In this document: positions 15,334 through 58,022 of the stretch, piece after piece | Numbering within the stretch: the stretch's first letter is position 1 | How the letters are laid out: every line of letters begins with the position of its first letter | Source: Thalassotalea psychrophila | GTDB taxonomy: Bacteria > Pseudomonadota > Gammaproteobacteria > Enterobacterales > Alteromonadaceae | DNA length: 64,000 nucleotides | Direction: 5' to 3' | Assembly (NCBI RefSeq): GCF_031583595.1 | Contig: NZ_CP134145.1 | Span: 3,286,001 to 3,350,000 of the forward strand | Made by a program: the position numbers and the translations under genes | Notes under the pieces: model-generated | What the model was told of the DNA's origin: nothing | The model's input: only the letters and a program-made list of their open reading frames with translations | Database searches by the model: none

Positions 15334-15489
15334 TCGTATTTCGAAATGAAATGTGATTTAGATACGAATACATAGCTTCGCTACTTCGGATACGTTACTA
15401 CGTAACTCCGCATACGCTACGCTTCGATAGTACTTTTAATTCGAAGGGGCGAAGTACCGTATTCGGAGTGAAACGTATTCGCGATTCGT
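15334..15489. repeat. hairpin-repeat array A (C-GNA-G family)
   Basis: Modules separated by CGAATAC/GTATTCG linkers. Examples are TAGC-TTC-GCTA and GTTAC-TAC-GTAAC cores on this strand, then a reverse half. It starts 6 bp after the EAL gene stop codon and ends 11 bp before the terminator at 15501, so it is transcribed as 3' UTR. Confidence 0.85.
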
Positions 15490-15500
15490 TCCTGAAATAA

Positions 15501-15526
15501 AAAACGCCAATTAAGGCGTTTTTATA
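15501..15526. terminator. bidirectional terminator between EAL and M16 genes
   Basis: AAAACGCC (15501-15508) and GGCGTTTT (15515-15522) with a 6-nt loop, A-rich on the left and T-rich on the right, between convergent genes. Confidence 0.9.
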
Positions 15527-15549
15527 TTTTTAATATTGATCACTTAATA

Positions 15550-18333
15550 TTATTTTTGTTCTGCAACCTTAGCAAAATCACCAGCTTTAAATATATTAAT
15601 GTCTAAAGCACCAATATATTTGTTAAATGCTGCATTAATATCTTCGACTGTAAGTTTTTGTACATCAGCAATTTGCTCGTCATAAAGCGCTAAGTCTTCA
15701 TTCTTTTTACTGGTACCTATAAGTATGCTTGCAATTGTTGCATCACTTGCCCAAGATCTGTTGCGGCTACTTACAAAGCCTTTTACAGCTTCTTCTAACT
15801 CAGTCTCGGTAAAACCATCCGTTACAACTCTTTCAACTTCTTCTTTGTAGGCGGCAATCACACCAGCCATATTTTCAGGAGCAGAAATGGCCAAGGCATA
15901 ATACATACCTTGTTTGTCAAGCGTATTAACTTGCAAACCTGATGCAACAGTGTAGCTATAGCCTTCTTTTACTCGAATGCGAGCACCTATTCGAGATGAA
16001 AATGAATCCCCACCAAAAATGGTATTGGCTATTTGCAATGCCAAATAATCTTCATGTCTATTGTCCATAGTGATTGGGTTTATCACATAAAGTTGCGAAT
16101 TAGCTTTGTCTGGTGTTTCGGTAGAAACAACTAAACCTTCCACTTGTTTCATGCTAATTTTTATGTGCTCATATGGCGTGTCATTAACAAAACTTGATAA
16201 TTGAGCATGCAATTGTTCAGATATTTGATCAGCATTAACATCACCTACAATACTAATATGGCCATTATTTATATTAGTATGGCTATTATATAAGCTGGCC
16301 ATTTCGTCTACGGTTAAGGCATTAATTGCTGCTATTTTATCATCCAAGCTCATGTAAGCTTTAGGGTGTCCTTTAGGATAATTATTTAACTCTTTTCTAA
16401 AGCTATTGCCAGCAACCGAGCTTGGATCATTACGTTGTTGCTCTATACCTGCAATAGCGCCACGTTTCATTACTTCAAGTTCATTTTCAGGGAATGTAGG
16501 AGCAGCCATTAATTCACCTAATAATTTAACTGTTGCATCTAAGTTAGCTTTGTCTGTGCTAATAGATACATTAGTAGAACCAAGTGTTGTCGAGATTGAA
16601 ATAGAGCTCTTCAATTGGTCAAGTTTGCTGGCTATTTGCTCTTTAGAGTAATTGGCATTTCCTTGCTTGATCATACCGCCAACAAAACCAATCGCAACGC
16701 CTTTGTTTGCCAAGGTCTCAGCAGTTCCACTTGGAAAGTGCATTGAAATGATTACTTGTTCACCACGAAGTTTTTTCGGGTAAACATTAACTTTAGTTCC
16801 TTCAGACCACTCACTTTTCACTAAACGGTTTTTAATGTTTGCTACAGTGTTGTCATAAACTTCACCTGCAGCAGCAACTTCTTTGCCTTTATAGTCTTTT
16901 AACACTTCAGTCAAATCTGGCGCAGCTGGAATTTCAGCACGTACCGGTTTTTCGGTAGGAATAAAACGTCCTGTTGTACGGTTACTTTGAATTAGGTATT
17001 TTTCAGCTGCCGCTTGTACTTGTTCCACGCTTACTTCAGCAACTAGATCTCTTAAATAAAACGCATGACGGTAATCACCTTTAGCGATATATTCAGAAAG
17101 TGCCATACCTACACCAGTTACGCTGCGCATCGCTTGTTCAGATTGACGTGCTAATTTAGCTTTGGTTAAATCAATTTCTTCTTGAGTTATAGGCTGTTTT
17201 ACTAAGCTCTCAACAATAGTCAGTAATTCAGTTTCTATTTTGGCGATATCAGAGTCTTTGCTACCTTCAACAAAGAACAAAAACTGAGAACTGTCTTTAA
17301 GCTCAAACATAAAACTTGATGCCGAAGTAGCAATGCCCTTTTCTACTAGAGCTTTTTGTAATCGCCCACGAGTACCATCTCCTAAAACATCAGCTAAAAT
17401 TGATAATGCAGCATGTTCAGGGTGTAAGCCAGATGGAGTATGGTAAGACAAGCCAACGATAGGTAAATCACCGACACGACGAATATTGACTGATCTTTCA
17501 CCATCTTGCGTTGGCTCTACAGTATAAAGTGGTTGAATAGGATTTTCTGGTTTAGCAATGGTGCCGAATTTTTGCTCAACTAAGGCCATGGTTTTATCTT
17601 TATCAAAACGGCCAGCAATTGTTAAAACGGCATTATCAGGTCGGTAATGCTTATTGTAGAATTCTCTTAAACGCTGAAACGGAAAGTTCTCTACATCTGA
17701 ACGCGCACCAATGGTGCTATTACCATAGTTGTGCCATAAAAATGCCGTTGATGCCATACGGCCCATTAGCATTCTGAACGGACTGTTTTCACCACGCTCC
17801 ATTTCGTTACGAACAACGGTCATTTCACTTTTTAAATCATCTTCAGTGAATGTGGCGTTAACCATACGGTCAGCTTCCATACCAATAGCCCATTCTAGGC
17901 TGTCTTCATTGGCATCAAATGTTTCAAAATAATTAGTGCGATCTAACCACGTAGAAGCATTTTTACCCATGCCACGTTTTTTAAATTCTTTATCAATACT
18001 TTTATAATTTGTAGATCCTTTAAAAAGCATGTGTTCAAGTAAATGAGCCATCCCCGTTTCACCATAGTACTCATGCACAGAGCCTACACGGTAGGTTACA
18101 TTAACTAACGTTTTTGGTTGTGATGGATCTGGATAAAGTAAAACTTTCAAGCCATTTTCTAGCGTATATTCTTCAATACCTTCAACGGTACGAACATATG
18201 TTAATGGACTACTTTGCAATTGCTCTGCTTGAACATTCTGACCTGTTGTAGAATTATCATTTGTTGCACATCCCGATAGGCCAAGTGCAATTGTTACTGA
18301 GAGACCAAGGAGAGTTGGTTTTAAAAATTTCAT
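15550..18333 (-). CDS. M16 family zinc metallopeptidase, lipoprotein
   Basis: Protein of 927 residues made of two M16 (insulinase/pitrilysin-like) halves. The N-terminus is a lipoprotein signal with lipobox LSGC at residues 19-22, so it is probably membrane-anchored facing the periplasm. The catalytic zinc motif HLLEH is at residues 97-101, followed by the downstream Glu helix EMTVVRNEMERGEN. The C-terminal half (from about 510) has the M16_C features GDSFSSRIGARIRVKEGYSY and lacks a second HxxEH, as usual. A likely role is degradation of periplasmic peptides. Monocistronic, convergent with the EAL gene. Confidence 0.93.
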   Translation of the reverse strand: MKFLKPTLLGLSVTIALGLSGCATNDNSTTGQNVQAEQLQSSPLTYVRTVEGIEEYTLENGLKVLLYPDPSQPKTLVNVTYRVGSVHEYYGETGMAHLLEHMLFKGSTNYKSIDKEFKKRGMGKNASTWLDRTNYFETFDANEDSLEWAIGMEADRMVNATFTEDDLKSEMTVVRNEMERGENSPFRMLMGRMASTAFLWHNYGNSTIGARSDVENFPFQRLREFYNKHYRPDNAVLTIAGRFDKDKTMALVEQKFGTIAKPENPIQPLYTVEPTQDGERSVNIRRVGDLPIVGLSYHTPSGLHPEHAALSILADVLGDGTRGRLQKALVEKGIATSASSFMFELKDSSQFLFFVEGSKDSDIAKIETELLTIVESLVKQPITQEEIDLTKAKLARQSEQAMRSVTGVGMALSEYIAKGDYRHAFYLRDLVAEVSVEQVQAAAEKYLIQSNRTTGRFIPTEKPVRAEIPAAPDLTEVLKDYKGKEVAAAGEVYDNTVANIKNRLVKSEWSEGTKVNVYPKKLRGEQVIISMHFPSGTAETLANKGVAIGFVGGMIKQGNANYSKEQIASKLDQLKSSISISTTLGSTNVSISTDKANLDATVKLLGELMAAPTFPENELEVMKRGAIAGIEQQRNDPSSVAGNSFRKELNNYPKGHPKAYMSLDDKIAAINALTVDEMASLYNSHTNINNGHISIVGDVNADQISEQLHAQLSSFVNDTPYEHIKISMKQVEGLVVSTETPDKANSQLYVINPITMDNRHEDYLALQIANTIFGGDSFSSRIGARIRVKEGYSYTVASGLQVNTLDKQGMYYALAISAPENMAGVIAAYKEEVERVVTDGFTETELEEAVKGFVSSRNRSWASDATIASILIGTSKKNEDLALYDEQIADVQKLTVEDINAAFNKYIGALDINIFKAGDFAKVAEQK

Positions 18334-18978
18334 TTATTAACCTTCATGTTTTTTAGTATATTTTGTTCCGCGACTATTCTTCAATAAGACAGTACGAAGA
18401 GCGGATAGTTAACTCTGTAAATTATAAATTTAGCATAGTATAAAATTGCACGAACCATAGCTGATTTTGAACAGGCAGTACAATCAAGGGCCAATAATTT
18501 TCATTAATTATTTATCAAATTTTTATTTATTCTAAATTAAAACAAAATCAACCATTCAAGGGGAGTATTAACCCCATGTTTTTATTGTAAATAGATAAAC
18601 TAAAGCAAATAAAACAATATTAGTTTATACCTATAAATATCGCAAAAAGTATACTCCATGAAAAAGGTTCAATTGTAACAATAGATGAAGAATATTTTTA
18701 ACAGAGTCGTTTTTCCAAAACTTGATACATATAGCCACACTCACATTTAAACAAATTTCACTAGCCAAATGATTGCGAGGATAGTAAGCCTTGCACTCTC
18801 TCCTTTCATTTAAAAAAATTAACAAACCATTAACGCAATACAAAATTGTAGAGAATTACTCTCTGATATAGATCAAGAAAGTTTAACTCCTAAAACTTTA
18901 ATCTATTGATGAACTTTATCTCTATATCTCCTTATAAGTTTAGCTGATACAATTTACGGTATTATTAATGATAAAAAA
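18334..18978. other. 645-bp AT-rich intergenic region
   Basis: Divergent promoter region between the M16 peptidase and pdxH. A 70-codon reading frame on the minus strand (18631-18843) has no signal, ribosome binding site or recognisable domain and is not called. Nothing else was identified. Confidence 0.5.
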
Positions 18979-19638
18979 ATGCTCATGACCCTTATTGAAA
19001 AACTTCGCTGCTTATTTACTTTCGGCCAAGGTGTTGCCCTACCGTTACCGCAAATACCTGAAAACAAATCTCCATTTGAAATTTTTAATCGTTGGTTTGA
19101 AGATGCAAATAAATCTGGGATTCTATTGCATGAGTCGATGTCAGTTAGCAGTTGTGATACACAAGGACAACCCTCGTCAAGAATGGTGCTGCTAAAATCA
19201 GTAGATGAGCAAGGTTTTGTGTTTTACACCAACTATGGCAGCCGTAAAAGCCAAGAATTGACCGATAACTCTAAAGTAGCCCTACTCTTCCATTGGGGCG
19301 TTTTACAGCGTCAAGTGCGCATTGAGGGCGTTGTAGAACGAATATCGGTAGAACAATCTGAACAATATTTTCACAGTAGAGACCGTGGCAGTCAAATTGG
19401 CGCCTGGGCATCTAAACAAAGTACTAAACTAACGACACCAACAGAGCTAAAAGAACGCGAAAAATACTTTACTGATAAATTTGCCGGTAAAGAAGTGCCA
19501 CTGCCTGAATTTTGGGGTGGATATCGCGTAGTACCGCACTATATTGAATTTTGGCAAGGACGAGCGAGTCGTCTACACGATAGAGTGTGTTTTCAGAAAG
19601 ATAAAAGCAGCTGGGAAATATTTAACTTACATCCTTAA
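18979..19638 (+). CDS. pdxH: pyridoxamine 5'-phosphate oxidase
   Basis: FMN-dependent enzyme of pyridoxal 5'-phosphate synthesis and salvage, oxidising PNP or PMP. The protein of about 219 residues has the PdxH landmarks PSSRMVLLKSVDEQGFVFYT, NYGSRKSQEL (FMN phosphate contacts), RDRGSQIGAWASKQS and the C-terminal dimerisation segment EFWQGRASRLHDR. The start is ambiguous between ATG 18979 and ATG 18985, and neither has a clear ribosome binding site. Monocistronic. Its 3' side is occupied at once by a hairpin-repeat array and a convergent gene. Confidence 0.95.
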   Translation: MLMTLIEKLRCLFTFGQGVALPLPQIPENKSPFEIFNRWFEDANKSGILLHESMSVSSCDTQGQPSSRMVLLKSVDEQGFVFYTNYGSRKSQELTDNSKVALLFHWGVLQRQVRIEGVVERISVEQSEQYFHSRDRGSQIGAWASKQSTKLTTPTELKEREKYFTDKFAGKEVPLPEFWGGYRVVPHYIEFWQGRASRLHDRVCFQKDKSSWEIFNLHP

Positions 19639-19640
19639 TG

Positions 19641-19784
19641 ACTTCAGTAGCGAATACATTTCATTCCGAATACGTAGCACTACGAATTACGAAGAAATTA
19701 TCGAAGCAACGCGTACTCGAAGTTACGAAGTAACGTACTCGAAGCGTAGCGTATTCGAAGTAGCGAAGCTACGTATTCGTACCT
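19641..19784. repeat. hairpin-repeat array B (C-GNA-G family)
   Basis: Fills the whole gap between convergent pdxH and DUF5916 genes. Cores include GTTAC-GAA-GTAAC (19722-19734) and GTAGC-GAA-GCTAC (19760-19772), with GTACTCG/GTATTCG linkers. The last bases GTACCTA supply the TAG stop of the minus-strand gene. Confidence 0.88.
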
Positions 19785-22224
19785 AATTCCCTATAAACCC
19801 CATATTATAATTAAGTTTTAAATAGAACTGACGGTCGTTAGTGAAATCATGCGCTATGGTGTTGTCTTTTTCTCGTTCAAATTTAAGACCGGTAAGAATT
19901 GCTAAGTTTTTAGTTATATAACGAGTATGGGTAAATTCAATTTCAACTTCACGTTCGTATGAATTTTCTTCACCACGCCATCTATCAACGTCTCGGTCTG
20001 TTTCATCCCACTTAACTAGCAAGCGAAATACACGGTCATCACTCCTGCGGTAGTTAGCGGTAAATGTAGTGAAGTTTTCTTGATATAATTCTTTACTTTC
20101 AAAGTCAAAATTACGAAACGTATGCTGCAGGCTAAAGTTAAAATCGCCTATTTGATATCGGACTCTAGGTTTAAATTCTTTCATCTTACCTAATACAATA
20201 TTGTCAGCGTCAGCAATATCACCATATCGTCCATCTAAATTAAATGTCCAATCAGTAATTGGTGATGTTTCTAGGTACCATTGAAAATACTTCTCATCGA
20301 ACTTTGGGGCATTACTATTTAACTCAAGGGTGTTTTGCTGGATGCGATTAACGGCCTTTTGCTTGATTCTATAACCTGGGCGCAGCACGGTTTGGTATGA
20401 GCCCCTAAACTCCCCCCAAATGTCATAGCCTGTTTCAATTTTTTGGCCTGACTGAGATTCAATATGAGTCGCAACTAAATATACTCGTCCACGAGATTTC
20501 CCATCATCACCACTGAAAGTTTTAAAATACCAGTTACGACCGTATGCCATATTGTATAAACGATAATCAGACTTTCTTAAAAACCCCAAATCAGCACGAA
20601 AATCTTTACTAATATCAAAATAGTTTCCCCAAAATAAAGTTTCAGGGCTCTGATGTTTATACTTCAACTGAACCGCATAGCCTTCCATGCTATCTCCCGG
20701 ATTGACCCTAAGCACTTCACTAGTGGTAGCACAATCACCTAGTTCACAATCTTCTTCAGGATCAACATCAAGACAGCCATCTTCTTCACATATACTTTCA
20801 GCAAAAGCAGCTGGATACTCTGTAGATGATAACGCTACTTGATAGCGAAGTTTATCATCAATTCCTAAGTTTATAAGTCCGTCGTGGGCCACGACACCGT
20901 TTTCATAATCTTCGGCGGTTCTTATTGTTGTTAAAAAACCGTAGGCACTGCCCCCAGCAGCGCTAACATACCTTGCCGCCATTGACTGACTATCAAGTGT
21001 ATCTAACTCAACAGTATCACTACCAAGGTTATCAGGAATAATAACTTCAGTTTCTTCATCATTGGCCCAAAACACACCGGAGGCAAACTCTTTAGTTTCA
21101 TGAGAGACACTTAGCCCCAAATCAGGGTCAATAATATTACGAGTGTAAACTAGCGACATTAATGTTGAATATAAATCCATACCTTCTTGGAAAAATCGTC
21201 TTTTTTCGGGTTTGAATACATTGAAAGGGTTGTTGATGCTGTCACGGGCAATATCTGCTTCAACGTCTGTAAAGTTTGGATTTATCGTACCGGCAATAAT
21301 AGTCGAATTATTAATGGTCAAGGTCATATCCATACCGGCATCAAATTCTTCTATTTCATCTCTTTGCTCAAACGGTTGTTGATAATCTCGTTTCTCACTT
21401 GAATGGTAAATAGCATACGGATAGAGTTCTAAGTTTCTTGTCGCGTTTTCAAATTGCATCTCCCCGCCTTGAGTTGAAGCTATTTGTTGCCCAGATATTG
21501 GATTAGGAGGATAAATTATATAGATCCCTCCCATGGTCCTATCAATTTTTCTTGGGTATGAACGCTTTAGTATAAGTGCCCACATATTACGCTCTTCACC
21601 TTCCGCTTTTGGTGAGCGTAGAGAATCAATTGGAATGGCTATTTCTACCAGGTAACCTGATTCTGTGATTTTTGCGGCGGCATCCCACTCGGTATCCCAA
21701 TCATATATGTATCGATCACTCACAGTGTTTTGTAGTACGTCTGATTTAGAACCACTTGGATTTACCCTAAATTCGTATTTTTTACGTAAATTACCGGTAG
21801 GATCAATTACCACAGAAACGTAATCATCGTCCTTAACACCATCCTCATCACGCACTGCAGTTCTGAGCTGAGAAATATCAGGATCATATGCATTAAAGGC
21901 AAAATACACATGGGTTTTAGTAACACCAATAAGCGCATCGGTATCAACAATAGATTTAGCAAAACGAGTTGGGTACATCTCTAAATCGATAGCTAATATG
22001 CTCGAAGATGCCCAAAACTTATCGGTTAAATCACCATCTATAACCGGTGGAGTGTCAAGAACTTCCAATTCGAGTTTTTCAATGTCATCAAGAGAAAAAG
22101 TTGCTGCGGCGGCATTATCTACTTCGGCTAGATCTTTTTCAGGCTCTTCATCAAGCTCAATGGCCAGTGCGGAAAATGTAAAAAATGAAATAATAAATAG
22201 GAATAAAACGAAAAGGTTTCTCAT
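19783..22224 (-). CDS. CBM9-like / DUF5916 outer-membrane protein
   Basis: Exported protein of 813 residues. The signal peptide covers about residues 1-21. An N-terminal carbohydrate-binding-module-9-like domain (about 55-240) has PPVIDGDLTDKFWASS and YVSVVIDPTGNLRKKYEFRVNPSGSKSD. The rest is a DUF5916-type beta-barrel ending in alternating strands (FYLKLNYNMGF). An acidic insert with clustered cysteines (ICEEDGCLDVDPEEDCELGDC) sits near residue 475 and looks like an extracellular loop. Members are outer-membrane proteins of unknown substrate, sometimes near peptidases. The stop codon lies in the repeat array. Confidence 0.85.
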   Translation of the reverse strand: MRNLFVLFLFIISFFTFSALAIELDEEPEKDLAEVDNAAAATFSLDDIEKLELEVLDTPPVIDGDLTDKFWASSSILAIDLEMYPTRFAKSIVDTDALIGVTKTHVYFAFNAYDPDISQLRTAVRDEDGVKDDDYVSVVIDPTGNLRKKYEFRVNPSGSKSDVLQNTVSDRYIYDWDTEWDAAAKITESGYLVEIAIPIDSLRSPKAEGEERNMWALILKRSYPRKIDRTMGGIYIIYPPNPISGQQIASTQGGEMQFENATRNLELYPYAIYHSSEKRDYQQPFEQRDEIEEFDAGMDMTLTINNSTIIAGTINPNFTDVEADIARDSINNPFNVFKPEKRRFFQEGMDLYSTLMSLVYTRNIIDPDLGLSVSHETKEFASGVFWANDEETEVIIPDNLGSDTVELDTLDSQSMAARYVSAAGGSAYGFLTTIRTAEDYENGVVAHDGLINLGIDDKLRYQVALSSTEYPAAFAESICEEDGCLDVDPEEDCELGDCATTSEVLRVNPGDSMEGYAVQLKYKHQSPETLFWGNYFDISKDFRADLGFLRKSDYRLYNMAYGRNWYFKTFSGDDGKSRGRVYLVATHIESQSGQKIETGYDIWGEFRGSYQTVLRPGYRIKQKAVNRIQQNTLELNSNAPKFDEKYFQWYLETSPITDWTFNLDGRYGDIADADNIVLGKMKEFKPRVRYQIGDFNFSLQHTFRNFDFESKELYQENFTTFTANYRRSDDRVFRLLVKWDETDRDVDRWRGEENSYEREVEIEFTHTRYITKNLAILTGLKFEREKDNTIAHDFTNDRQFYLKLNYNMGFIGN

Positions 22225-24287: not shown

Positions 24288-24289
24288 AA

Positions 24290-35207: not shown

Positions 35208-35320
35208 GGTGGCCCCTCTTTCAGCCACATCCCGGCACATGAGTCGTCTGCTGCGGTTGCTCCCTTCCAGGCCTGGCCGAGTTCACAGAGTATCATTGCG
35301 GGAGGACCAAAAGAGGCACC
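35208..35320 (-). ncRNA. ffs: signal recognition particle RNA (4.5S RNA)
   Basis: Read on the minus strand, the RNA begins GGTGCCTCTTTTGGTCCTCC and contains the conserved tip region with GGCCAGGCCTGGAAGGGAGC and the return strand CGACTCATGTGCCGGGATG. It ends GAGGGGCCACC, which pairs with the 5' end. This is the bacterial small SRP RNA, which with Ffh targets nascent membrane proteins. Length about 113 nt, normal for gammaproteobacteria. Exact ends are inferred from pairing. Confidence 0.95.
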
Positions 35321-36922: not shown

Positions 36923-37014
36923 TTGGATACCCTAAAAAATTTTAATACGCTTATATTAAAGATAGCTAAAACATAAAAAAGTTTAAAGTTTTTTTGTTTT
37001 ATTTGAAAAAATAC

Positions 37015-37310
37015 AAATACGCTGACGCTTCGAATTCGTTTCACTTCGAATACGTTTCACTTCGAATACGCTATCGCTTCGGATACGTAGCTTCGCTACT
37101 TCGAATACATTACATTCCGAATTACGAATTACGAAGTGGTTATCGAAGCTTCAGCGTATTAGGAGGCGCGAAGCGCCGTATTCGAAACTAAGGTTTGTAT
37201 TCGTAGTGCAACGTATTCGAGATTCGTCACTAAGGTACGTATTCGAAGCCCCTGCGTATTAGGAGGCGCGTAGCGCCGTATCCGAAGGCACGAAGTGCCG
37301 TATTCGTAAC
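37015..37310. repeat. hairpin-repeat array C (largest, about 295 bp)
   Basis: Cores include GGCGC-GAA-GCGCC (37165-37177), GGCGC-GTA-GCGCC (37265-37277), GGCAC-GAA-GTGCC (37287-37299) and TAGC-TTC-GCTA near 37100. Linkers are CGAATACG on the left half and CGTATTCG on the right half, around a centre GAATTACGAAGTGGTTATCG. It lies directly behind the maiA stop codon in the 3' UTR. Confidence 0.9.
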
Positions 37311-39614: not shown

Positions 39615-39784
39615 CAATACGCTGACGCTTCGAATACGTTGCACTTCTAATACGTTTCACTCCGAATACGCTGCGCTTCGATAACGGCTTCGTAATTCGG
39701 AATGAAATGTATTCGGAGTAGCGAAGCTACGTATTCGTAATTACGAAGTAATGTATTCGAAACCACAAAGTGGTGTATTCGTAC
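39615..39784. repeat. hairpin-repeat array D (C-GNA-G family)
   Basis: Three successive right-hand modules have different but self-paired cores: GTAGC-GAA-GCTAC, ATTAC-GAA-GTAAT (39740-39752) and ACCAC-AAA-GTGGT (39762-39774). The left half has CGAATACG linkers. It occupies the phhB 3' UTR between stop codon and terminator; the last CTA supplies the phhB TAG. Confidence 0.9.
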
Positions 39785-43767: not shown

Positions 43768-43935
43768 AATTCGTTTCGAGTTACGAATAATAATAGGTGC
43801 AAATTACGAATACGTTGCACTTCGAATACATTGCATTCCGAATCACGAAGCAGCTATCGAAGCGCAGCGTCTTCGGAGCGGGGCGTATCCGAAGTGTAGC
43901 GTATCCGAAGGTACGAAGTACCGTATTCGAAATAA
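43768..43935. repeat. hairpin-repeat array E (C-GNA-G family)
   Basis: Between the divergent ycjX and S23-type genes. Shows CGAATACGTTGCACTTCG and CATTGCATTCCG left modules, the conserved centre CGAATCACGAAGCAGCTATC, and right modules ending in GGTAC-GAA-GTACC (43910-43922). One of the few arrays in a 5' rather than a 3' position. Confidence 0.88.
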
Positions 43936-43991: not shown

Positions 43992-44339
43992 ATGCAATAC
44001 GAAAACTTAGATCTATGGCAGCGTAGCTGTGAATTAAGTAGCACTGTCTACAAGTCTCTTGCATCATTGAAAGACTATGGCTTTAAAGATCAAATCACCC
44101 GCTCGTGCCTTTCTGTCCCCAGCAATATTGCCGAAGGATTAGAAAGGTATACCCCACAAGAAAAGTTTCGCTTTTTAACAATAGCGAAAGGCTCTCTTGG
44201 TGAGTTCAAAACACAAACCTATGTAGGGATGAAAGTAGGCTACATTTCAAAAGAAAGTGGTGATGCCTGGCTTAAAGAGTCTGAAGAAATTTCAAAAATG
44301 ATAGGCGGCTTCATGAAATATTTGAAAACTAAACTTTAG
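43992..44339 (+). CDS. four-helix-bundle protein (S23/IVP, Avd-like)
   Basis: Protein of 115 residues from the ATG at 43992, with AAGGA 8 nt upstream. It matches the S23 family (TIGR02436) pattern: NLDLWQRSCELSSTVYK, DQITRSCLSVPSNIAEGLER near residues 33-53, and FLTIAKGSLGEFKTQTYVGM. Relatives were first seen inside intervening sequences of 23S rRNA genes, and the Avd protein of diversity-generating retroelements has the same fold. Basic patches suggest nucleic-acid binding. Here it is solitary, with repeat arrays immediately on both sides (43768-43935 and 44340-44515). The first base after its stop codon already belongs to the array. Confidence 0.9.
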   Translation: MQYENLDLWQRSCELSSTVYKSLASLKDYGFKDQITRSCLSVPSNIAEGLERYTPQEKFRFLTIAKGSLGEFKTQTYVGMKVGYISKESGDAWLKESEEISKMIGGFMKYLKTKL

Positions 44340-44515
44340 TTACGAATACGGCGCTCCGCGCCTTCGAATACGTTGCACTACGAATACATTTCATTACGAA
44401 GCAGCTATCGAAGCGCAGCGTCTTCGGAGTCCGGCAGTGACATATTCGAAGAAGCGAAGCTACGTATTCGAAGCGATAGCGTATCCGGAGGTACGATGTA
44501 CCGTATTCGTATCTA
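44340..44515. repeat. hairpin-repeat array F (C-GNA-G family)
   Basis: Begins directly after the S23 gene stop and ends 5 bp before the ugd stop codon. Cores include GGCGC-TCC-GCGCC (44347-44359), GGTAC-GAT-GTACC (44490-44502) and an imperfect GAAGC-GAA-GCTAC. The centre is GAAGCAGCTATCGAAGCGCA, identical over 20 bases to array E. Confidence 0.9.
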
Positions 44516-45732: not shown

Positions 45733-45983
45733 TTAGGTACGAATTACGAATACGTTCCACTTCGAATACGGTACTTCGTACCTCCGAATTAAAATACAAA
45801 ACAGCACAGAATATCGAATGAATTCAATTACGAATACGACGCTCTGCGCCTCCGAATGCGTTGCACTATGAATACATACCTTAGTTACGAATCTCGAATA
45901 CGTTGCACTACGAATACTTTTCATTTCGAAGCAGCTATCGAAGCGAAACGTATTCGAAGTCACGTAGTGACGTATTCGAAACT
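45733..45983. repeat. hairpin-repeat array G (C-GNA-G family, two blocks)
   Basis: A left block (45735-45790) has GGTAC-TTC-GTACC. About 40 bp of unrelated AT-rich sequence follow, then a right block with GCAGCTATCGAAGCGAAACG and GTCAC-GTA-GTGAC (45959-45971). It lies between the divergent ugd and beta-barrel genes, so it would be in both 5' regions. Confidence 0.87.
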
Positions 45984-46683: not shown

Positions 46684-46838
46684 CTAGGTACGAATACGGC
46701 GCTCTGCGCCTTCGAATACGTTTCACTCCGAATCACGAAGCAACTATCAAAGCGATAGCGTATTCAAAGTAGCGAAGCTACATATTCGAAATCTCGCAGT
46801 GATGTATTCGTAACTAGGCGCAGCGTTAGCGTATTAGA
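46684..46838. repeat. hairpin-repeat array H (C-GNA-G family)
   Basis: Starts 6 bp after the stop codon of the beta-barrel gene and ends just before the terminator at 46842. Cores include GGCGC-TCT-GCGCC (46694-46706) and GTAGC-GAA-GCTAC, with the centre CGAATCACGAAGCAACTATC. Confidence 0.88.
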
Positions 46839-46892: not shown

Positions 46893-46992
46893 ATACGAAT
46901 CACGAATACATTTCATTCCAAACTCGAAGCGTTAGCGTACTCGGAGTAGCGAAGCTACGTATTCGAAGGCGCAAAGCGCCGTATTCGAAACT
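46893..46992. repeat. hairpin-repeat array I (C-GNA-G family, short)
   Basis: Mirror-placed to array H across the shared terminator, in the 3' UTR of the minus-strand lipoprotein gene. Contains GTAGC-GAA-GCTAC and GGCGC-AAA-GCGCC (46968-46980). Confidence 0.88.
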
Positions 46993-48222: not shown

Positions 48223-48394
48223 GTTACAAATACGCTTTGCTCCGAATGCGTTTCACTTCGAATCACGAATGAACTATCGAAGCGCAGCGTATCCGAAGGT
48301 ACGAAGTACCGTATCCGAAATAGCGAAGCTACGTATTCGAAGTCACGCAGTGACGTACTCGAAGTAGCGAAGGTACAAAGTACCGTATTCGTAA
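48223..48394. repeat. hairpin-repeat array J (C-GNA-G family)
   Basis: Cores in order: GGTAC-GAA-GTACC, ATAGC-GAA-GCTAC (one mismatch), GTCAC-GCA-GTGAC (48342-48354) and GGTAC-AAA-GTACC. It ends at the YjbH stop codon; GTAACTAA supplies the TAG. Confidence 0.9.
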
Positions 48395-50530
48395 CTAATA
48401 CCTATCGCGGTTAAAGTAAGCTCTATTCAAGTTATGATAAAGGCTTGGCTCCTTACCAAACCCAGACTTAATCGTATTACCGGTGTTTTCTTCAGTAAGG
48501 GATGTTTCAATATAGTAATCCCATTGTTCAGTACCCATTACTTGCACACCGTAATTAGGCTTCATTGATTTGCCAAAGTTTAGTGGAATACTAAAACCAA
48601 GCGCTAAAAAGTCTTCTTCTTCGCCGCCATCGGCATCGTCAAATTTGGTACGCTTATAACGAACACCAACTTGCACATTGTTAAACCAGTGTAGCGAGCG
48701 TAAGGTAAAACCTTTATCGCCATGCCAATATTCACCAGCGGTTAATTCTATATCCCAATTAAGTGGGTGATATCGGTAACGGTACTTAACTAGTTTGGGT
48801 TGCTGCTTAATTGTTTTTTTACCGCCCCAAACCCAAATATCATTTTCAAAATCACCAACTAACGTAGTTACCCTATGCGTATTAGTATTATCAGCCCAGC
48901 GAGTTTCATTTAATAAACCGTCATGGTCGCCATAAACACGTCCAAAGCTAAACTTAGTAAATACATTAAATGGCAACACAAAGGTTTGATGAAATAAGCG
49001 AGTATCAATGCCTTCATCCAAGCCATATTTCTTTTGATAGTACTCGCCACCATCAAAGTCATCGCTATTCACCACAGAGTCAGACAAGTGGCGTACTTCA
49101 ATAACGCCACCATCCCATAAACTCATTTGCAAACGAGAGCTAATAGCAACTTCATAATCATATGCACCGTACTCAGTACCCACTAATGACTTAAGTTCTG
49201 GGGCAAGTATTAACCTTGGAGTAAAATGGGTAGAACTTTCATTTTTAACTAGCCAATTAACAGAATCATCACCAAACCAACCAGCAAAGATACCAGTTTC
49301 ACTACTTCCTGAACTTGTTTCAGGATCTCCACCACGTAATGCTTCAGCGTAACTAACAACACCAGAGTTTGTTAATTCAATTGTCCCTTGCACATCACCC
49401 AGTGCAACTAATGATAAATGACGTACAACCGCAATCGCATCCATTTCATTTTGGTTATAAATATTATTCTCAATACGAATAAGGACATCGTCGCCAGACA
49501 ATCCTAAAGAAACACTTTCAAAACCCTCGTTCTCAAGGCGTTGCGCCAACATAGCAACGCGTTCATTAATACCATCATTCCCGTGCTTTCCCCCGTCATT
49601 CCCGCGAAGGCGGGAACCCATGTATTCGTTTTCACCTTCCCCCTTAGTACTTAGCCCTTCTACTTCACCAAGCATCTCAACCCGATAAGCTTCATCACTA
49701 CTAAAAGCCAAAGAACGATCCTCTGTGGCACTTCCAGCCCCAAGCGGTACGCTTATACCAAAATTAAACCAAGCATCCCGTTCATTATGCTCATCATCAC
49801 TAGAGTACAAGTGCGCGCTTACATATAAATCCCAACCATTAGGCAACCATGAATCAGGCGCAAACGCTTTTACGCCAACATTAACCGCATTCGCATCATA
49901 TTCTGCTGCAACTTGTAATACCTCAAACGGTTGATACTCAACAGAGCCAATTGCCCCATCCATATAACCAATGGCATTATCTGAAGTAGCAACACCTAAA
50001 CTTGTACGTACAGCCCCAATAGATGAAAAAGTAAACTCTTTAGAAGCACTAACATAATAAGCCTCAGATTTAACCACCGAGCCGCCAACATCTTGGCCAC
50101 CAATTGCCAAACTGAACCAGTCTTTGGGGATAAACGGTATTTGCCATTTAATAGAACCCGATAAATCACGAGTGCCGCAGCCTCCTTCAGTAATACCATT
50201 ACAAGCCCAAGTTTCAGTTGCCAGTCGTGCAACTACTTCAAGCCCAGGTAAAATTCCAACTCCAAACTTTAAATCATGATAATTTTGAAAACCTTTATCA
50301 TATAATTCCGTATTACCTTGATCAAAATAGTTATCTGAATAACTAAAGCCAAAATCCCCCCAATTAATTACTTCAGCTGTAGGGGTGTTAAACACCCCAG
50401 TAAACGCCTGCATTGAATAACTGTTATTTATTGAGGAAGGTTTGCTTTCTGTTTCATTAAGTAAAAATTGAGTTTGAGCTGAATTAGCAAAGGCTAATAA
50501 TATGCAAGAGGTTAAAAATTGTTTTTTCAT
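48395..50530 (-). CDS. yjbH: YjbH domain-containing outer-membrane protein
   Basis: Exopolysaccharide-associated outer-membrane protein of 711 residues. Signal peptide about 1-20. The family start SMQAFTGVFNTPTAEVINWGDFGFSYSD is followed by GFQNYHDLKFGVGILPGLEVVARL. A large barrel ends with FNVFTKFSFGRVYGDHDGL and GFSIPLNFGKSMKPNYG. In E. coli yjbEFGH and related gfc operons, YjbH serves polysaccharide export. Two dispersed palindromes lie inside the reading frame: an SRLRGND-type unit (residues about 304-320, MGSRLRGNDGGKHGNDG) and one encoding GGDPETSSGSSETG near residue 405. Both are in frame. Confidence 0.88.
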   Translation of the reverse strand: MKKQFLTSCILLAFANSAQTQFLLNETESKPSSINNSYSMQAFTGVFNTPTAEVINWGDFGFSYSDNYFDQGNTELYDKGFQNYHDLKFGVGILPGLEVVARLATETWACNGITEGGCGTRDLSGSIKWQIPFIPKDWFSLAIGGQDVGGSVVKSEAYYVSASKEFTFSSIGAVRTSLGVATSDNAIGYMDGAIGSVEYQPFEVLQVAAEYDANAVNVGVKAFAPDSWLPNGWDLYVSAHLYSSDDEHNERDAWFNFGISVPLGAGSATEDRSLAFSSDEAYRVEMLGEVEGLSTKGEGENEYMGSRLRGNDGGKHGNDGINERVAMLAQRLENEGFESVSLGLSGDDVLIRIENNIYNQNEMDAIAVVRHLSLVALGDVQGTIELTNSGVVSYAEALRGGDPETSSGSSETGIFAGWFGDDSVNWLVKNESSTHFTPRLILAPELKSLVGTEYGAYDYEVAISSRLQMSLWDGGVIEVRHLSDSVVNSDDFDGGEYYQKKYGLDEGIDTRLFHQTFVLPFNVFTKFSFGRVYGDHDGLLNETRWADNTNTHRVTTLVGDFENDIWVWGGKKTIKQQPKLVKYRYRYHPLNWDIELTAGEYWHGDKGFTLRSLHWFNNVQVGVRYKRTKFDDADGGEEEDFLALGFSIPLNFGKSMKPNYGVQVMGTEQWDYYIETSLTEENTGNTIKSGFGKEPSLYHNLNRAYFNRDRY
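49307..49325. repeat. dispersed palindrome TCCTGAA...TTCAGGA inside yjbH
   Basis: TCCTGAA and TTCAGGA arms with a CTTGT centre. Related copies occur outside genes at 58569-58589 (CTGAATTTATTTCAG) and, degenerate, at 51427-51446. The in-gene copy encodes DPETSSG on the minus strand. Confidence 0.7.
49570..49622. repeat. SRLRGND-type palindromic repeat inserted in yjbH
   Basis: Contains ATTCCCGCGAAGGCGGGAA (49599-49617), preceded by a decayed second copy (CATTCCCGTGCTTTCCC). Intact copies lie at 57643-57670 and 57680-57707. Translated on the minus strand it gives GSRLRGNDG, a peptide familiar as the product of this repeat class in many genomes. Confidence 0.85.
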
Positions 50531-51247: not shown

Positions 51248-51267
51248 AACTTAGCAAGTGATAAACA

Positions 51268-51293
51268 AAAAAACCGGCGTAAGCCGGTTTTTT
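51268..51293. terminator. terminator after beta-barrel paralogue 2
   Basis: AAAAAACCGGC (51268-51278) and GCCGGTTTTTT (51283-51293) with a GTAA tetraloop; symmetric A/T tracts make it usable in both directions. Confidence 0.93.
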
Positions 51294-51496
51294 GTGTTTA
51301 TCAATAATGCTCCACGTATTCACGGGGATGACTATGTTAATCTCATAGCTTTCTAACTTGGAACTTTGCAGCTATCTAATGGATCCCCGCCTACGTGTAC
51401 CCCCCTTCAGTTCAGGGACTTAAAATTCTGAAACAAGTTCAGAAAGACGGTATTGAGCATAGTTCTACTACAATTTTGTCATTCTAACGAAGGTCC
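51294..51496. other. repeat debris before the MITE-like element
   Basis: Holds decayed palindromes: CGGGGAT (51318-51324) facing ATCCCCG (51382-51388), the CATAGCTTTCTA motif seen in other gaps of the locus, and a TTCTGAAAC...TTCAGAA dyad. No gene. Confidence 0.5.
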
Positions 51497-51756
51497 AACA
51501 CCGTTCAGTTAAGGATTAAATAAGATCCTGACCTTCGTCAGGAAAATTAGATACTATTTTCCGTTGTTCTCGGTGTAACACGAAGTGCCTCGGTGAAGTG
51601 CGTAACACCTCGGTGGTTCAATGGTTTCAGCTCTAAAAGTCAAATAAACCACAGAGGAAATCGATGCTTCAATAAACAGATAAAAAACTTAGTTCCTTAA
51701 CTGAACGGTGTTAGACGAAGGTCAGGATCTTATTTAACTCTTAACTGATCGGTGTT
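51497..51756. mobile_element. MITE-like element, single copy (260 bp)
   Basis: Non-coding element with imperfect inverted ends of about 44 bp (51497-51540 and 51713-51756). The left end begins AACACCGTTCAGTTAAGGA and recurs inverted without mismatch at 51694-51712. Inside the core CCTCGGTG is repeated three times, with CTCTAAAAGTCAAATAAACC and ACCACAGAGG. The same core occurs three times in tandem at 53867-54449. No transposase is encoded. Confidence 0.85.
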
Positions 51757-51785
51757 ACGCCTGTGCGAGAACGACCTATGGTCGC

Positions 51786-53189: not shown

Positions 53190-53202
53190 AACGTCTTATT
53201 TT

Positions 53203-53568
53203 TTAATTAATTTTATTCGGTCTTAAATAAGGCCATAGAGTTGTGGTAAGAATTAAACCAACTACAATGCCGAAAACATCGGCGAGTAAGTCAAGGTATG
53301 AAAAGTGCCTAAATGTGGTAGTTCCCTGTAATACTTCTAATAACATACCATATACAAACAACCAGGCCATAACATTTACATTTCTTGACTTTGTATAACA
53401 AAAGCTCTGCAAAACAGAAAGTACGAAAAATGCAATAAAATGATTTGCTTTATCGTAACTTGAAATATTTGGAAGTTCAGCAATTGGCATCAGCGCTAAA
53501 TAACTTACCGAGAGTAAACAAACCACAAAAAGCACTTTAAAGTGAAATCTAGTGACTTTTTTTAACAT
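53203..53568 (-). CDS. VanZ family membrane protein
   Basis: Small inner-membrane protein of 121 residues with four hydrophobic helices. The VanZ-like pattern is DKANHFIAFFVLSVLQSFCY (helix 2 with the conserved D-K/N-H) and YGMLLEVLQ...RHFSYLDLLADVFGIVVG. Start chosen at the ATG 53568, with GGAAT 6-7 nt upstream, over a TTG at 53583. VanZ-like proteins are frequent in exopolysaccharide loci; their biochemical role is not defined. Probably coupled with wcaJ. Confidence 0.87.
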   Translation of the reverse strand: MLKKVTRFHFKVLFVVCLLSVSYLALMPIAELPNISSYDKANHFIAFFVLSVLQSFCYTKSRNVNVMAWLFVYGMLLEVLQGTTTFRHFSYLDLLADVFGIVVGLILTTTLWPYLRPNKIN

Positions 53569-53866
53569 AGGGATTCCAATCAAGCGACAAGCTAGCTTGT
53601 CACTTTCTAAAAGAGTACGTCAACAAATTTCACTAATTACCCGAATAGATCCAAACAAATTAAAAATAATTAGCGTAATCTGGATAATTCATTGACTAAA
53701 TTTTTCTAAAATATCGTCATTGTGTCCAACTAGTGCATGAATGTACGTAGGTACGACGATATGGATATAGGAGATAGAGCATTGTCGGGAACAAGTGCTG
53801 AGAACAATGTAGGAGCAATTGTCGATCTAGCTAGGTGCTTTCTATTATGGTTCCCCGCTTGCGAAC
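53569..53866. other. 300-bp non-coding region upstream of the VanZ gene
   Basis: Contains a perfect 16-bp palindrome GACAAGCTAGCTTGTC (53586-53601) close to the VanZ start, then AT-rich sequence. It may hold a promoter for the VanZ-wcaJ pair, since the MITE cluster separates these genes from manB. Confidence 0.4.
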
Positions 53867-54449
53867 AACACCGTTCAGTTAAGGATTAAATATGATCCTG
53901 ACCTTCATCAGGAAAATTAGATACTATTTCCCGTTGTTCTCGGTGTAACACGAAGTGCCTCGGTGAAGTGCGTAGCACCTCGGTGGTTCAATGGCTTCAG
54001 CTCTAAAAGTCAAATAAACCACAGAGGAAATCGAGGCTTCACTACACAGATAAAAAACTTATTTCCTTAACTGAACGGTGTTATACCTTCGTCAGGAAAA
54101 TTAGATACTATTTCCCGTTGTTCTCGGTGTAACACGAAGTGCCTCGGTGAAGTGCGTAGCACCTCGGTGGTTCAATGGTTTCAGCTCTAAAAGTCAAATA
54201 AACCACAGAGGAAATCGAGGCTTCACTACACAGATAAAAAACTTATTTCCTTAACTGAACGGTGTTAGACCTTCGTCAGGAAAATTAGATACTATTTCCC
54301 GTTGTTCTCGGTGTAACACGAAGTGCCTCGGTGAAGTGCATAGCGCCTCGGTGGTTCAATGGTTTCAGCTCTAAAAGTCAAATAAACCACAGAGGAAAAC
54401 GAGGCTTCACTACACAGAGAAAAAACTTTAGTTTCTTAACTGATCGGTT
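53867..54449. mobile_element. MITE-like element, tandemly amplified (three cores)
   Basis: The left end AACACCGTTCAGTTAAGGA (53867-53885) is followed by three cores. The first core ends in the inverted sequence at 54064-54082. The second (54083-54266) and third (54267 to about 54449) repeat with a period of 184 bp. The copies differ at few positions, so amplification is recent. It splits manB from the VanZ-wcaJ genes. No coding capacity. Confidence 0.87.
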
Positions 54450-54490
54450 CCCCGCCTGTGCGGGGATGACGGATGTCATTCCCGCTTTCC

Positions 54491-54518
54491 AGCTTCTAGC
54501 TTCTAGCTTCTAGCTTCT
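54491..54518. repeat. heptamer tandem repeat overlapping the manB stop codon
   Basis: Four copies of AGCTTCT (AGAAGCT on the coding strand). The manB TAG lies at 54510-54512 inside the third and fourth units, so the last codons (RS) and the stop are made of repeat. Confidence 0.88.
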
Positions 54519-55931
54519 AAGTATTTGCAAAATAGCTTCGGTTTTAGCTTCCATCAAACCAACATCCGCTTTCGACTCAACGTTCAAACGCACTACAGGC
54601 TCAGTGTTAGAAGAGCGAAGATTAAATCGCCATTCACCGTCGTTGCCTGCAAACTCTAATGAAATACCATCGGTTTGATCAAACACAACCGCATCATCTT
54701 TAAATGCAGCCAGTACGTTCGCGATAGAAGCTTTAGGATCAGCAAGTTTTGAATTAATTTCACCACTTGAAGGATACGCAGCAATACGTTCTTTAACCAT
54801 TGACGATAGTGTTGTGCCTTTAACTGAAAGTAACTCAGCAACTAATAACCAAGGGATCATACCAGAGTCACAATAAGCAAAATCTCTAAAGTAATGATGA
54901 GCACTCATTTCGCCGCCGTAAATAGCATTTTCTTTGCGCATACGCTCTTTAATAAACGCATGCCCGGTTTTACTCATTACGGCCTCACCACCAGAGTTTT
55001 CAACAATATCAATAGTATTCCAAGAAAGACGAGGATCATGAATGATCTTCTCTTTAGCTACTAGCTTTGAGCTTTTAGCTCGCTTTAAAAACGCCTCAGC
55101 AAGAAGCCCAACGATATAATAGCCTTCAATAAACTCGCCGCTTTCATCAAACAAGAAACAGCGGTCAAAATCGCCATCCCAGGCAATACCCATATCAGCT
55201 TTATGTTCAATTACTGCGTTTGCAGTATCAGCCCTACATTCAGGTAATAAAGGATTAGGAATACCATTTGGAAAGTTACCATCTGGCTTGTGGTGCACTT
55301 TAATAAATTCAATATTTACGCCAGCAGCAATGAGCTCTTTTTCAATAGCATCTAATGCCGGCCCGGCTGCACCATTTCCACTGTTAACCACTAGTTTTAA
55401 TGGTTTAAGCTTACTTGCATCAATAAACCCAAGCATGTGCTTAGCAAACTCAATTTTTAAAGGTTTGGTGATGTACTTACCCCTTTTACCTGAATTTTTT
55501 CGGACGTTATCATCAACTTCAGATAATAACTTTTCAGCAGTCGCTTTTATTGCATTCAAACCAGTATCACCTGAAATTGGTTTAGAGTCTTCACGTACCA
55601 ATTTCATACCGTTGTAATCCATAGGGTTATGCGAGGCCGTTACTTCTACCCCACCACAAACACCTAAATATTTAGTCGCAAAGTAAATTTCTTCAGTACC
55701 GGTCATACCAAGGTCAATTACATCTACCCCTTCATCTTGCAAGCCTTTGGCAAGGGCAAGTTTAAGTTGCTCTGATGTTAATCGAATATCACCGCCTACA
55801 ACAACCTTTTTAGGTTTTATTTCAAGGGCGAATGCACGACCAATGGCATAAGCAATCTCTTCATTTAATTCAGTGCCAAGTTGGCCGCGAATATCATAGG
55901 CTTTAAAACAAGTTAATGGTGTAACAGACAA
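54510..55931 (-). CDS. manB: phosphomannomutase / phosphoglucomutase
   Basis: Converts mannose-6-phosphate to mannose-1-phosphate for GDP-mannose synthesis (CpsG/ManB type), 473 residues. Phosphoserine loop [14 protein letters not shown] near residues 98-111, metal loop GDFDRCF near 243-249, sugar loop [13 protein letters not shown] near 338-350 and C-terminal phosphate loop [12 protein letters not shown]. It follows manC on the same strand but 246 bp of repeat array lie between. Its stop codon falls in a heptamer repeat. Confidence 0.95.
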
Positions 55932-55968
55932 GGTATACCTCGGTAATAATGTTTAAAAATTAGTAACT

Positions 55969-56180
55969 AATTACGAATAAAAATAGTTGCGAATCACGAA
56001 TACGTTGCACTACGAATACATTTCATTTCGAAGCTACTATCGAAGCGCAGCGTATTCGAACCGATAGTGTATCCAAATCACGAAGCAGCTATCGAAGCGT
56101 CAGTGAATTCGGAGGTACGTAGTACCATATTCGAAATGAAATGTATTCGAAGCGATAGCATATTGGCAGTAGCGAAGCTA
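55969..56180. repeat. hairpin-repeat array K, reaching into manC
   Basis: Left modules CGAATACGTTGCACTACG and the centre CACGAAGCAGCTATCGAAGC are followed by GGTAC-GTA-GTACC and finally GTAGC-GAA-GCTAC (56169-56181). The CTA within this last core (56178-56180) is the manC stop codon on the minus strand. Confidence 0.9.
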
Positions 56181-57623
56181 CGCTCTGCCGTATCTATCCT
56201 CAAAGCGAACAATATCATCTTCGCCTAAGTAGTCACCCGATTGCACTTCAATAAGTTCAAGCGGCAATACGCCAGGGTTTTCAAGAGCGTGAATAGTGCC
56301 AATAGGAATAAACGTAGACTCGTTTTCACGTACTAAAAAGGTATCATCGCCATTAGTCACTTTTGCAGTACCAGATACTACAACCCAATGTTCAGCGCGA
56401 TGGTGATGCATTTGAATTGACAGCTTTTCACCAGGTTTTACCGTAATTCGTTTAACCTGATCACGTTTACCTACGTCGATTGAGTCGTAATGGCCCCAAG
56501 GACGATACACTTGGCGGTGAATATTAGCTTCAGTTCTGCCAAGGGCTTTAATTTGTTCAACAATTTTTTTAACGTCTTGTACGTTGTCTTTATTAACTAC
56601 AAGTACTGCATCTTTGGTTTCAACCACAATGCAATTGTCTAGGCCAACCGTTGCTACAAGTTTTTGCTCGGCAATTACCAAGTTATTAGTACTACCATGG
56701 CTTAATACATCACCTTGATGTACATTGCCATTATCATCTTTTTCTTTTAAATCCCAAATAGCTGAAAAACTGCCAATATCATTCCAGGCAGCATCAAGAG
56801 GCACAACAACTACAGAGTCAGAGCCTTGTGCTTTGCACAGCGGTTCCATTACCGCATAATCAATAGAATCATCAGGGCATGCCGCAAACGCATCAGCATC
56901 TACTCGAATAAAATCCATATCATTACTGGTATGTTTAAGGGATGCTTTACAATATTTAAGAATTTCCGGTTGGTATTTTTCAAGCTCTTCAATATAACGA
57001 GATGCTTTGAACATAAACATACCCGAGTTCCAGTAATATTCACCAGAGGCCAAATAACCTTCAGCAGTAACAAGATCAGGTTTTTCTACAAATGAATCAA
57101 CAGAAAAAGCATCAAGCGGCTTGCTTTCTAGCTCTCTAGCTTCAAGCTGCGCCCCTGCACGTATATACCCATATCCTGTTTCAGCATGAGTTGGCACAAT
57201 CCCAAAGGTAACCAACTTACCTTCTGCCGCAAGAGATTCAGCACTTGCCACAACACGACAAAATTCGGCTTCATTCTCAATAACATGATCAGCCGCCAAC
57301 ACCAGCATTACAGGATCGTTACCAGCATTAAGTTCACTTAGTGCTGCAAGGGCAATAGCAGGCGCAGTATTACGCCCAACAGGCTCTAGTATAATTGAAC
57401 CTAATGCATCTATTGCTTGCATCTGCTCTGCAACAATAAAGCGATGTTCTTCATTACAAATACAAAGTGGTGTTGCAACGTCTAAACCCGACAAACGTAA
57501 AACCGTTTCTTGGATCATAGAGTTTTCTGAAGCAATTTTTAAAAACTGCTTAGGCATTAACTTACGTGACAAAGGCCATAAACGAGAGCCCGAGCCCCCT
57601 GCCATAATTACTGGTGTGATCAT
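56178..57623 (-). CDS. manC: mannose-1-phosphate guanylyltransferase / mannose-6-phosphate isomerase
   Basis: Bifunctional type II enzyme making GDP-mannose, 481 residues. N-terminal nucleotidyltransferase with [20 protein letters not shown] (residues 9-28) and the segment [16 protein letters not shown]-terminal cupin isomerase domain with [10 protein letters not shown] and [18 protein letters not shown] (about 405-440). The last residues GRA and the stop codon lie at the edge of a hairpin core of array K, so the C-terminus has been shaped by the repeat. It feeds gmd and fcl next in the locus. Confidence 0.96.
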
Positions 57624-57642
57624 AATCTATTTCTTTTTATCA

Positions 57643-57707
57643 GTCATTCCCGCGAAGGCGGGAATCCATTATTTAATCTGTCATTCCCGCGAAGGCGGGA
57701 ATCCATT
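57643..57707. repeat. two copies of the SRLRGND-type palindrome
   Basis: Two identical 28-bp copies of GTCATTCCCGCGAAGGCGGGAATCCATT (57643-57670 and 57680-57707), described here by its arms ATTCCCGC and GCGGGAAT. They lie upstream of manC, and the same palindrome is inserted in yjbH. Confidence 0.9.
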
Positions 57708-57902
57708 TTTTATCATTATAGTGCAAAGCTCATAGCTTTCTAGCTTTCAGCTTCCACATAGGTCCATACCCGAACTAATCGACCTGGACGCAATGTCGCT
57801 TTCTACTTTTCCAACTTTCTATGATTAACCTAATTAGCGAAATTCGATGATAAAAAATTTAACTAAGGCCAACAAATTACACAGACTCACCGAATAGTAC
57901 TT

Positions 57903-58022
57903 AAATTCGAAATACAAAATAACGTATTCTTATCTCAGATTCGAATTACGAATACATTACATTCCGAATTACGAAACACCTATCGAAGCGACAGCGTATT
58001 CGAAGCACAGCGTATTCGTAAT
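57903..58022. repeat. hairpin-repeat array L (degenerate)
   Basis: Linkers CGAATTACGAATAC and GTATTCGAAGC and the centre GAATTACGAAACACCTATCG are present, but the GNA cores are mostly eroded. It lies in the 3' region of gmm, 8 bp before its stop codon. Confidence 0.8.

Follow-up and report, generated by a model that had tools for sequence, protein, structure and literature searches.

Twelve arrays of short hairpins lie in the 64,000-nucleotide stretch of Thalassotalea psychrophila DNA analysed here (the window, C1:3286001-3350000 of the source genome G000, a single contig of 4.81 Mb), and in the hairpin cores of these arrays the maintenance of pairing while the arms vary is well supported. 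Among the genomes searched, the family was found in G000 and in two of its congeners, G004 and G010, only. We put at about one half the probability that the arrays form a narrow family of mosaic palindromic elements, relict or non-autonomous, which has diversified by gain, loss and inversion of modules and in which folding is selected. Many natural small hairpins with differing yet pairing arms, sites common to two species and a strand-specific mismatch signature occur together in these arrays, which let one ask whether hairpin pairing in a chromosome is kept through selection on folded single strands or through template-switch mutation, a question usually put to RNA genes.

The arrays are marked by a short linker, CGAATACG/CGTATTCG, of which the window has 36 copies where 1.3 would be expected; none of 100 shuffles reached 36. 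This bears out the original prediction, made from the letters of the window, of twelve linker-sharing arrays (span 15365 to 58019). According to a crude open reading frame (ORF) caller, from which the gene contexts of the arrays are taken, they are intergenic except for array F, which lies inside a longer GTG-start frame upstream of a gene for a 23S-rRNA intervening-sequence protein (23S-IVP). Outward-pointing linkers flank both sides of a centre close to CGAATYACGAAGYNRYTATCGAAGC, and 269 of the 289 linkers in arrays with a recognised centre point outward, so that each array is an inverted repeat; the hairpins of its two halves sit on opposite strands. The pattern CGAATACGAAG had no match in the G000 genome. 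Linker spacing was found to be quantised, with 82 gaps of 22 nt, 57 of 16 nt and 18 of 17 nt among the 176 gaps of 12–33 nt in the examined stretches of the three genomes. Cores with 5-bp arms and a 3-nt loop, which had been predicted throughout, are those of the 22-nt units, but there is a second kind with 2-bp arms, around a 3-nt loop in 16-nt units and a 4-nt loop in 17-nt units. By reading, the palindromes come after the linker CGTATTCG and two further bases, mostly AA or GA, and many arrays end alike on both sides (ATTCG, three mostly A/T bases, C, then often CTAR or CTTA; unscored). Arrays mostly follow a stop codon closely: of 88 arrays, 58 had a gene 3′ end no more than 40 nt away, and 7 had a 5′ end at that distance. 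How many arrays are counted varies with the genome stretches examined: the G000 stretches gave 34 calls, one of which, a coding repeat in L037, was removed to leave 33 arrays and was excluded from later unit and end counts, and some added stretches entered the unit and orthology sets, not the array list.

Because the 22-nt units were gathered through their linkers alone, pairing was no criterion for their selection. All five pairs, G·T included, were present in 88 of the 102 units found in this way, and five Watson–Crick pairs in 86 of the 111 units of an extended set. In the shorter cores, two of two pairs formed in 80 of 92 16-nt units and 23 of 28 17-nt units. In an alignment of the 87 distinct 22-nt units, 94.5% of cells were paired, where shuffles had 65.9%; double-change cells numbered 143 (shuffles 48.6) and the covariation score was 0.748 (shuffles 0.222). 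When the partner was slid by 1–3 columns the signal was gone (at most 52.2% paired, score at most 0.113). Two rows were dropped, window:12863-12892, which does not look like a repeat, and L073:3515-3544:-, although the register of this second row on the other strand stayed in by error. The number of pairs with change on both sides (4 against 3.8) alone showed no excess over shuffles. Covariation had been expected at all five arm positions; it is limited to four of them, because the innermost pair is C-G in 80 of 87 units and so almost invariant. As an outside control, nine matches to the unit-like pattern in the genomes of other species had at most three of five Watson–Crick pairs. It had been suggested that pairing is kept by selection or by a copying mechanism that acts on hairpins, and of this the keeping of pairing is observed, whereas the mechanism is one that we infer.

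The eight arm pairs named in the original prediction all occur in the window, and perfect 22-nt units as a whole have 12 arm types. Six types account for 77 of the 86 perfect units, so copying matters, and the objection raised beforehand, that all cores might be intact copies of a small number of fixed sequences, is half right. Yet outer-pair changes from G-C to A-T occur in several backgrounds (GTAGC/ATAGC, GTTAC/ATTAC and GTCAC/ATCAC), with one-sided intermediates present: GTAGC/GCTAT and ATAGC/GCTAC, for example, bridge GTAGC/GCTAC and ATAGC/GCTAT. In a minimal tree of the 12 arm types all 11 steps were single-pair double changes, whereas random sets had a mean of 4.9 and none of 2000 reached 11. 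The last hairpin of array E before a shared gene end is ACCAC/GTGGT in G000, ATCAC/GTGGT in G004 and ACCAC/GTGAT in G010, so that three species display both one-step intermediates at one pair.

Loops had been described as mostly GAA, GTA, GCA or AAA closed by C-G. This agrees with the R-N-A loops of the perfect 22-nt units (GNA in 66 and ANA in 14 of 86), but not with the perfect 16-nt units, where GNA loops stand on a T-A closing pair in 43 of 50 and where units with G-C arms have ANA loops in 21 of 34 and exact GC-GNA-GC in 7 of 34. Overall, loops were R..A in 205 of 223 units and inverted T..Y loops were found in none of the 223. The available text of PMC4686876 names DNA mini-hairpins that have a GNA or GNNA loop and two or more G-C pairs as extraordinarily stable, and the C(GNA)G cores of the 22-nt units and the GC-GNNA-GC cores of the 17-nt units fit the loop classes given there. 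The proposed link to stable DNA triloops thus holds for the 22-nt units and extends to the 4-nt loops but fits the 16-nt cores less well; these mostly deviate, which weighs against a simple match, and the published hairpins are laboratory oligonucleotides and no repeat family.

On the strand that carries the R-N-A loop, we counted 23 G·T mismatches and 2 A·C mismatches (binomial 2e-5), or 16 and 2 when only distinct cases were taken (binomial 0.001), 8 of 231 units being excluded as poorly paired. The ratio of G·T to A·C was 12:1 on the + genome strand and 11:1 on the − strand, and 5:1 in those units that run antisense to both members of a tandem gene pair. Since a G·T on one strand is an A·C on the other, equal counts would be expected if a protein saw the duplex or if the arms were homogenised regardless of strand. 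The strand-biased excess, antisense units included, therefore points to single-strand folding: the loop strand probably folds as a single strand, with DNA the likely molecule. A test of strand bias by gene and replication strand, which had been proposed, turned out to be weak, with a gene split of 5:1 antisense and, in G000, a replication split of 4:0 and 3:2.

We found that G000 3.30–3.43 Mb is largely collinear with G004 1.215–1.335 Mb, inverted and with local rearrangements. Array sequence was present at the orthologous G004 place for 14 of the 19 G000 arrays compared (A, B, D, E, F, G, I, I2, J, K, N, O, P and Q, of which N and O have one G004 stretch in common); the matching G004 place of array M has no array, and the other four gave no clear answer. 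Only 4 of 18 G000/G004 array pairs had the true ortholog as best match (limits set by hand; orientation flags unreliable for pairs A, U and V), and the hairpin modules at sites common to the two genomes are largely replaced. Seven GTACC-type hairpins stand in tandem at site B in G004, and G000 has none; G010 has other sequence there and no array, and across the genus (12 of 15 genomes listed) the neighbours beyond G004 and G010 differ or the contig ends. The centre of array E is inverted between shared flanks in G000 relative to G004. Two or more sites hold arrays in every one of the three array-bearing species. Some G010 sites orthologous to arrays (L182, L148) hold in places AACGAG-type tandem repeats or other hairpin-rich repeats, as if they attracted repeats.

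A mechanism of single-strand folding, linker-mediated module turnover and loss of non-folding modules can be read from these patterns. The elements would have settled behind stop codons in forebears of the three related species. Whenever an array became single-stranded, during replication, repair or as a single-stranded DNA intermediate, each module would fold alone; switching or slippage between the identical linkers could then add, delete or invert modules; and modules that did not fold would be lost or left uncopied, so that arms would drift by way of wobble intermediates. The family may by now be a relict.

Mutation alone might also keep the pairing, with polymerase template switching that copies one arm of a hairpin onto its partner and so produces both matched changes at once, selection playing no part. 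According to the accessible part of PMC8794818, template switching fixes stems and gives compensatory changes, and that of PMC8604942 reports that it homogenises arms and inverts spacers, with which the inverted centre of array E is compatible. Template switching, however, gives no reason for the 23 to 2 excess of G·T on the loop strand, and the one-sided intermediates GTAGC/GCTAT, ATAGC/GCTAC, GTTAC/GTAAT and ATCAC/GTGGT suggest stepwise change instead. It also leaves the conservation of the loops unexplained, a weak objection because spacer inversions are reported, in the part of PMC8604942 available, only for arms longer than 9 bp. We hold this account to be unlikely, although it survives best among the alternatives to a family whose folding is selected.

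Arrays are also placed at a large rearrangement. G000 1.360–1.3947 Mb runs with G010 4.80–4.84 Mb and G000 1.3962–1.440 with G010 1.71–1.65, while G000 3.305–3.3298 corresponds to G010 4.86–4.84 and the pieces from 3.3305 on to G010 1.71–1.78. This split collinearity, read from the examined G010 stretches, indicates that G010 and G000 differ by an inversion spanning about 1.395 to 3.330 Mb of G000. Both breakpoint intervals, G000 1394701-1396168 (1.47 kb) and 3329767-3330519 (0.75 kb), hold arrays in G000. This picture of arrays at the breakpoints of a replichore-scale inversion is suggestive only, because arrays are dense there, the pieces further on are small, and a second G010 place is also matched by one of them. 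Of the 38 matches to CGTATTCGNAG in G000, 26 fall within 3.27–3.49 Mb and five within 1.36–1.44 Mb, regions that lie about equally far from base 1, which by reading is the apparent dnaA start. Should arrays seed large inversions, they would bear on genome order. A bolder reading joins these observations into a hairpin-cassette system, in which fixed intergenic docking sites would exchange, invert, gain and lose self-folding single-stranded mini-hairpins, the unit of inheritance, through identical linkers of 8–9 nt, with folding of the loop strand under selection and recombination between arrays producing the replichore-scale inversion; we consider it a little less plausible still than template switching.

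The 23S-IVP gene (PF05635; window 43992-44336) lies between arrays F and G, at the inversion breakpoint. G000 has three copies (3330001, 3362428 and 3363356), G004 two (1300160 and 2496110) and G010 one. As a partner of the arrays the gene was rejected: G000 3330001 and G004 1300160 are between detected arrays, and the other two G000 copies are outside.

That the arrays act as RNA, forming structured mRNA 3′ ends in stability, termination or processing, is favoured by their nearness to gene 3′ ends and by the position of array A and both arrays I, which by reading lie between a stop codon and a terminator-like hairpin. Against this, the two halves of an array carry hairpins on opposite strands, and antisense units of tandem pairs pair nearly as well as sense units (39 of 47 against 45 of 49), with five G·T and one A·C among the antisense. 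The 4-base loops have C or T in third place in 25 of 26 cases and are hence unlike GNRA, the RNA tetraloop rule. Rfam recognised only transfer-messenger RNA (tmRNA; gene at 7211-7561) and the small signal recognition particle (SRP) RNA (gene at 35216-35312) in the window, with no match to the arrays. We therefore regard mRNA as unlikely to be the main folded molecule, and a role as RNA as rather improbable.

The restriction of the family to three species was seen with several searches. The centre pattern, with at most one mismatch, matched 21 times in G000, 19 in G004 and four in G010 among 97 related genomes; eight others had one or two matches, the level of a reversed control pattern. A covariance model of the 22-nt unit, run on 196 genomes of the family with at most 37 candidates scored per genome, gave at least 35 matches in G000, at least 34 in G004 and, in two further genomes, a single marginal match apiece, G010 being undrawn or unmatched there. 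A DNA search of the genus returned 12 matches in G010, most of them to array parts of the query, and single matches in four other genomes that by query coordinates cover gene parts. An 18-base unit pattern had nine matches in eight records of genome_contigs, a collection that may lack records close to G000, about 7–8 being estimated by chance and none being a family hairpin, and no match in viral contigs; array I as query had no match in plasmids or phages.

The best reading of the arrays among known repeats is as mosaic intergenic palindromes of a new build, nearest to bacterial interspersed mosaic elements (BIMEs), REPINs and miniature inverted-repeat transposable elements (MITEs). The claim that no family of this build is described stands in so far as the window gave no Rfam match and none was found in the open-access literature searched, but the arrays do belong to this wider kind. 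The BIMEs of enterobacteria are likewise intergenic mosaics of short palindromes, with alternating orientation and 3′ location. Their repetitive extragenic palindromes (REPs) in E. coli have a GTAG in front and a conserved bulge (available text of PMC8266576), features that the present units fail despite the mosaic build: arms are free, stems are mostly perfect and the linker is the constant part, no GTAG tag precedes the palindromes, GTAG among the hairpins belongs to one stem type (31 of 86 perfect units), and 12 perfect arm types replace the single conserved palindrome of a REP class. The REPINs of Pseudomonas, which go with a REP-associated tyrosine transposase (RAYT), are also palindromic paired elements whose hairpins show compensatory changes (PMC3116915, in the part available), and here too a Y1-family gene lies among the arrays. 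In REPINs, however, a spacer separates two highly conserved end regions, whereas the present elements contain several hairpins of a dozen arm types, and the Y1 protein is without catalytic residues. With MITEs such as ERIC and Correia the arrays have in common that they are short and non-coding, with an inverted-repeat build and like ends, and a 3′ UTR location is reported for one MITE in the available text of PMC10969869; they differ in their internal modular hairpins with covarying arms and in that no partner transposase was found among the families searched, Y1 and DDE_3.

If the arrays were MITEs of some other transposase, the internal hairpins would be passengers. By reading, terminal inverted repeats are present (unscored). 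No DDE_3 (IS630-type) transposase was detected in G000, other transposase and enzyme families not being searched, so IS630 was rejected as a mover; the array-less G010 sites, where target duplications would be looked for, have diverged flanks, and covariation is not expected of passenger hairpins, leaving this explanation very improbable.

Each array-bearing genome has one Y1-family (PF01797) match (E 0.001 or better), adjoining galU in G000 and G010. The G000 protein (L050:1141-1959) is 84% identical to its G010 counterpart and 77% to that of G004. By the motif definitions in the accessible part of PMC6006769, the place of HUH is taken by NHIQ (G000, G010) or TQIQ (G004), and all three proteins have F for the catalytic Y of Y--NP. 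With the catalytic motifs replaced, no active RAYT is seen, and RAYT was rejected as mover; with this degree of identity despite the replaced residues, the galU-adjacent protein is perhaps a domesticated DNA-binding protein. A current REP/RAYT-type element moved by this Y1 protein is thus the least probable of all, even though arrays lie on both sides of the gene within about 15 kb (the nearest detected in G000 at about 3 kb) and RAYTs are known to act on single-stranded DNA hairpins whose loops have 3 or 4 nt (PMC8266576, in part), since the palindromes lack the tag and a diverged galU-side Y1 copy exists in G005, where the centre pattern and the unit model are unmatched.

Several points weigh against a family diversified by module turnover with selected folding. 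The G·T excess consists of few events and copied units are non-independent; with the 8 poorly paired units kept, the counts become G·T 25 and A·C 9, and the replication-strand split is thin and, in G000, assumes the position of the terminus. Whole-array fold z-scores are modest for some arrays (B −2.2, J −1.7, second I −1.5). The Y1 and DDE_3 searches found no enzyme driving module turnover, and the module differences at shared sites could stem from independent re-insertion.

Table 1. Hairpin arrays of the window, with positions counted from its first base.
Feature	Position	Strand	Context
Array A	15365..15481	.	Between convergent genes for an EAL-domain protein and an M16 peptidase; followed by a terminator-like hairpin (by reading)
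Array B	19651..19779	+	Behind a PNPOx (pdxH-like) gene
Array C/D	37014..37306	+	293 bp, the longest; resembles two fused arrays; adjoins the 3′ end of a glutathione S-transferase (GST)-like gene
Array E	39631..39781	-	Centre inverted relative to the orthologous G004 array
Array E hairpin unit	39752..39781	+	Arms ACCAC/GTGGT
Array F	43807..43929	+	Upstream of the 23S-IVP gene; within one breakpoint interval of the G000/G010 inversion
Array G	44343..44509	+	Behind the 23S-IVP gene; in the breakpoint interval common with F
Array H	45747..45978	+	Two blocks (from 45747; 45831-45978); between divergent genes
Array I (first)	46691..46837	+	Follows a gene for an outer-membrane beta-barrel protein and precedes a terminator-like hairpin (by reading)
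Array I (second)	46903..46987	.	Other side of the terminator-like hairpin of the first array I
Array J	48227..48391	+	Adjoins the 3′ end of gene 48395-50530
Array K	55997..56150	+	Tandem pair of centres; more unit-like sequence to about 56177
Array L (short)	57923..58018	+	Near the 3′ end of gene 58031-58498

The coding repeat removed from the array list (L037:18315-18472) is a 30-base tandem repeat with CGTATTCG-like words in an open frame (by reading, a TRIRIEPTGS-like peptide) and is apparently unrelated to the arrays. Another palindrome, REP-like and distinct from those of the arrays (CATTCCCGCGAAGGCGGGAATCCAT), is present in two copies at about 57645-57706 of the window; similar repeats occur in G010 and near 3402 kb, where they adjoin arrays.

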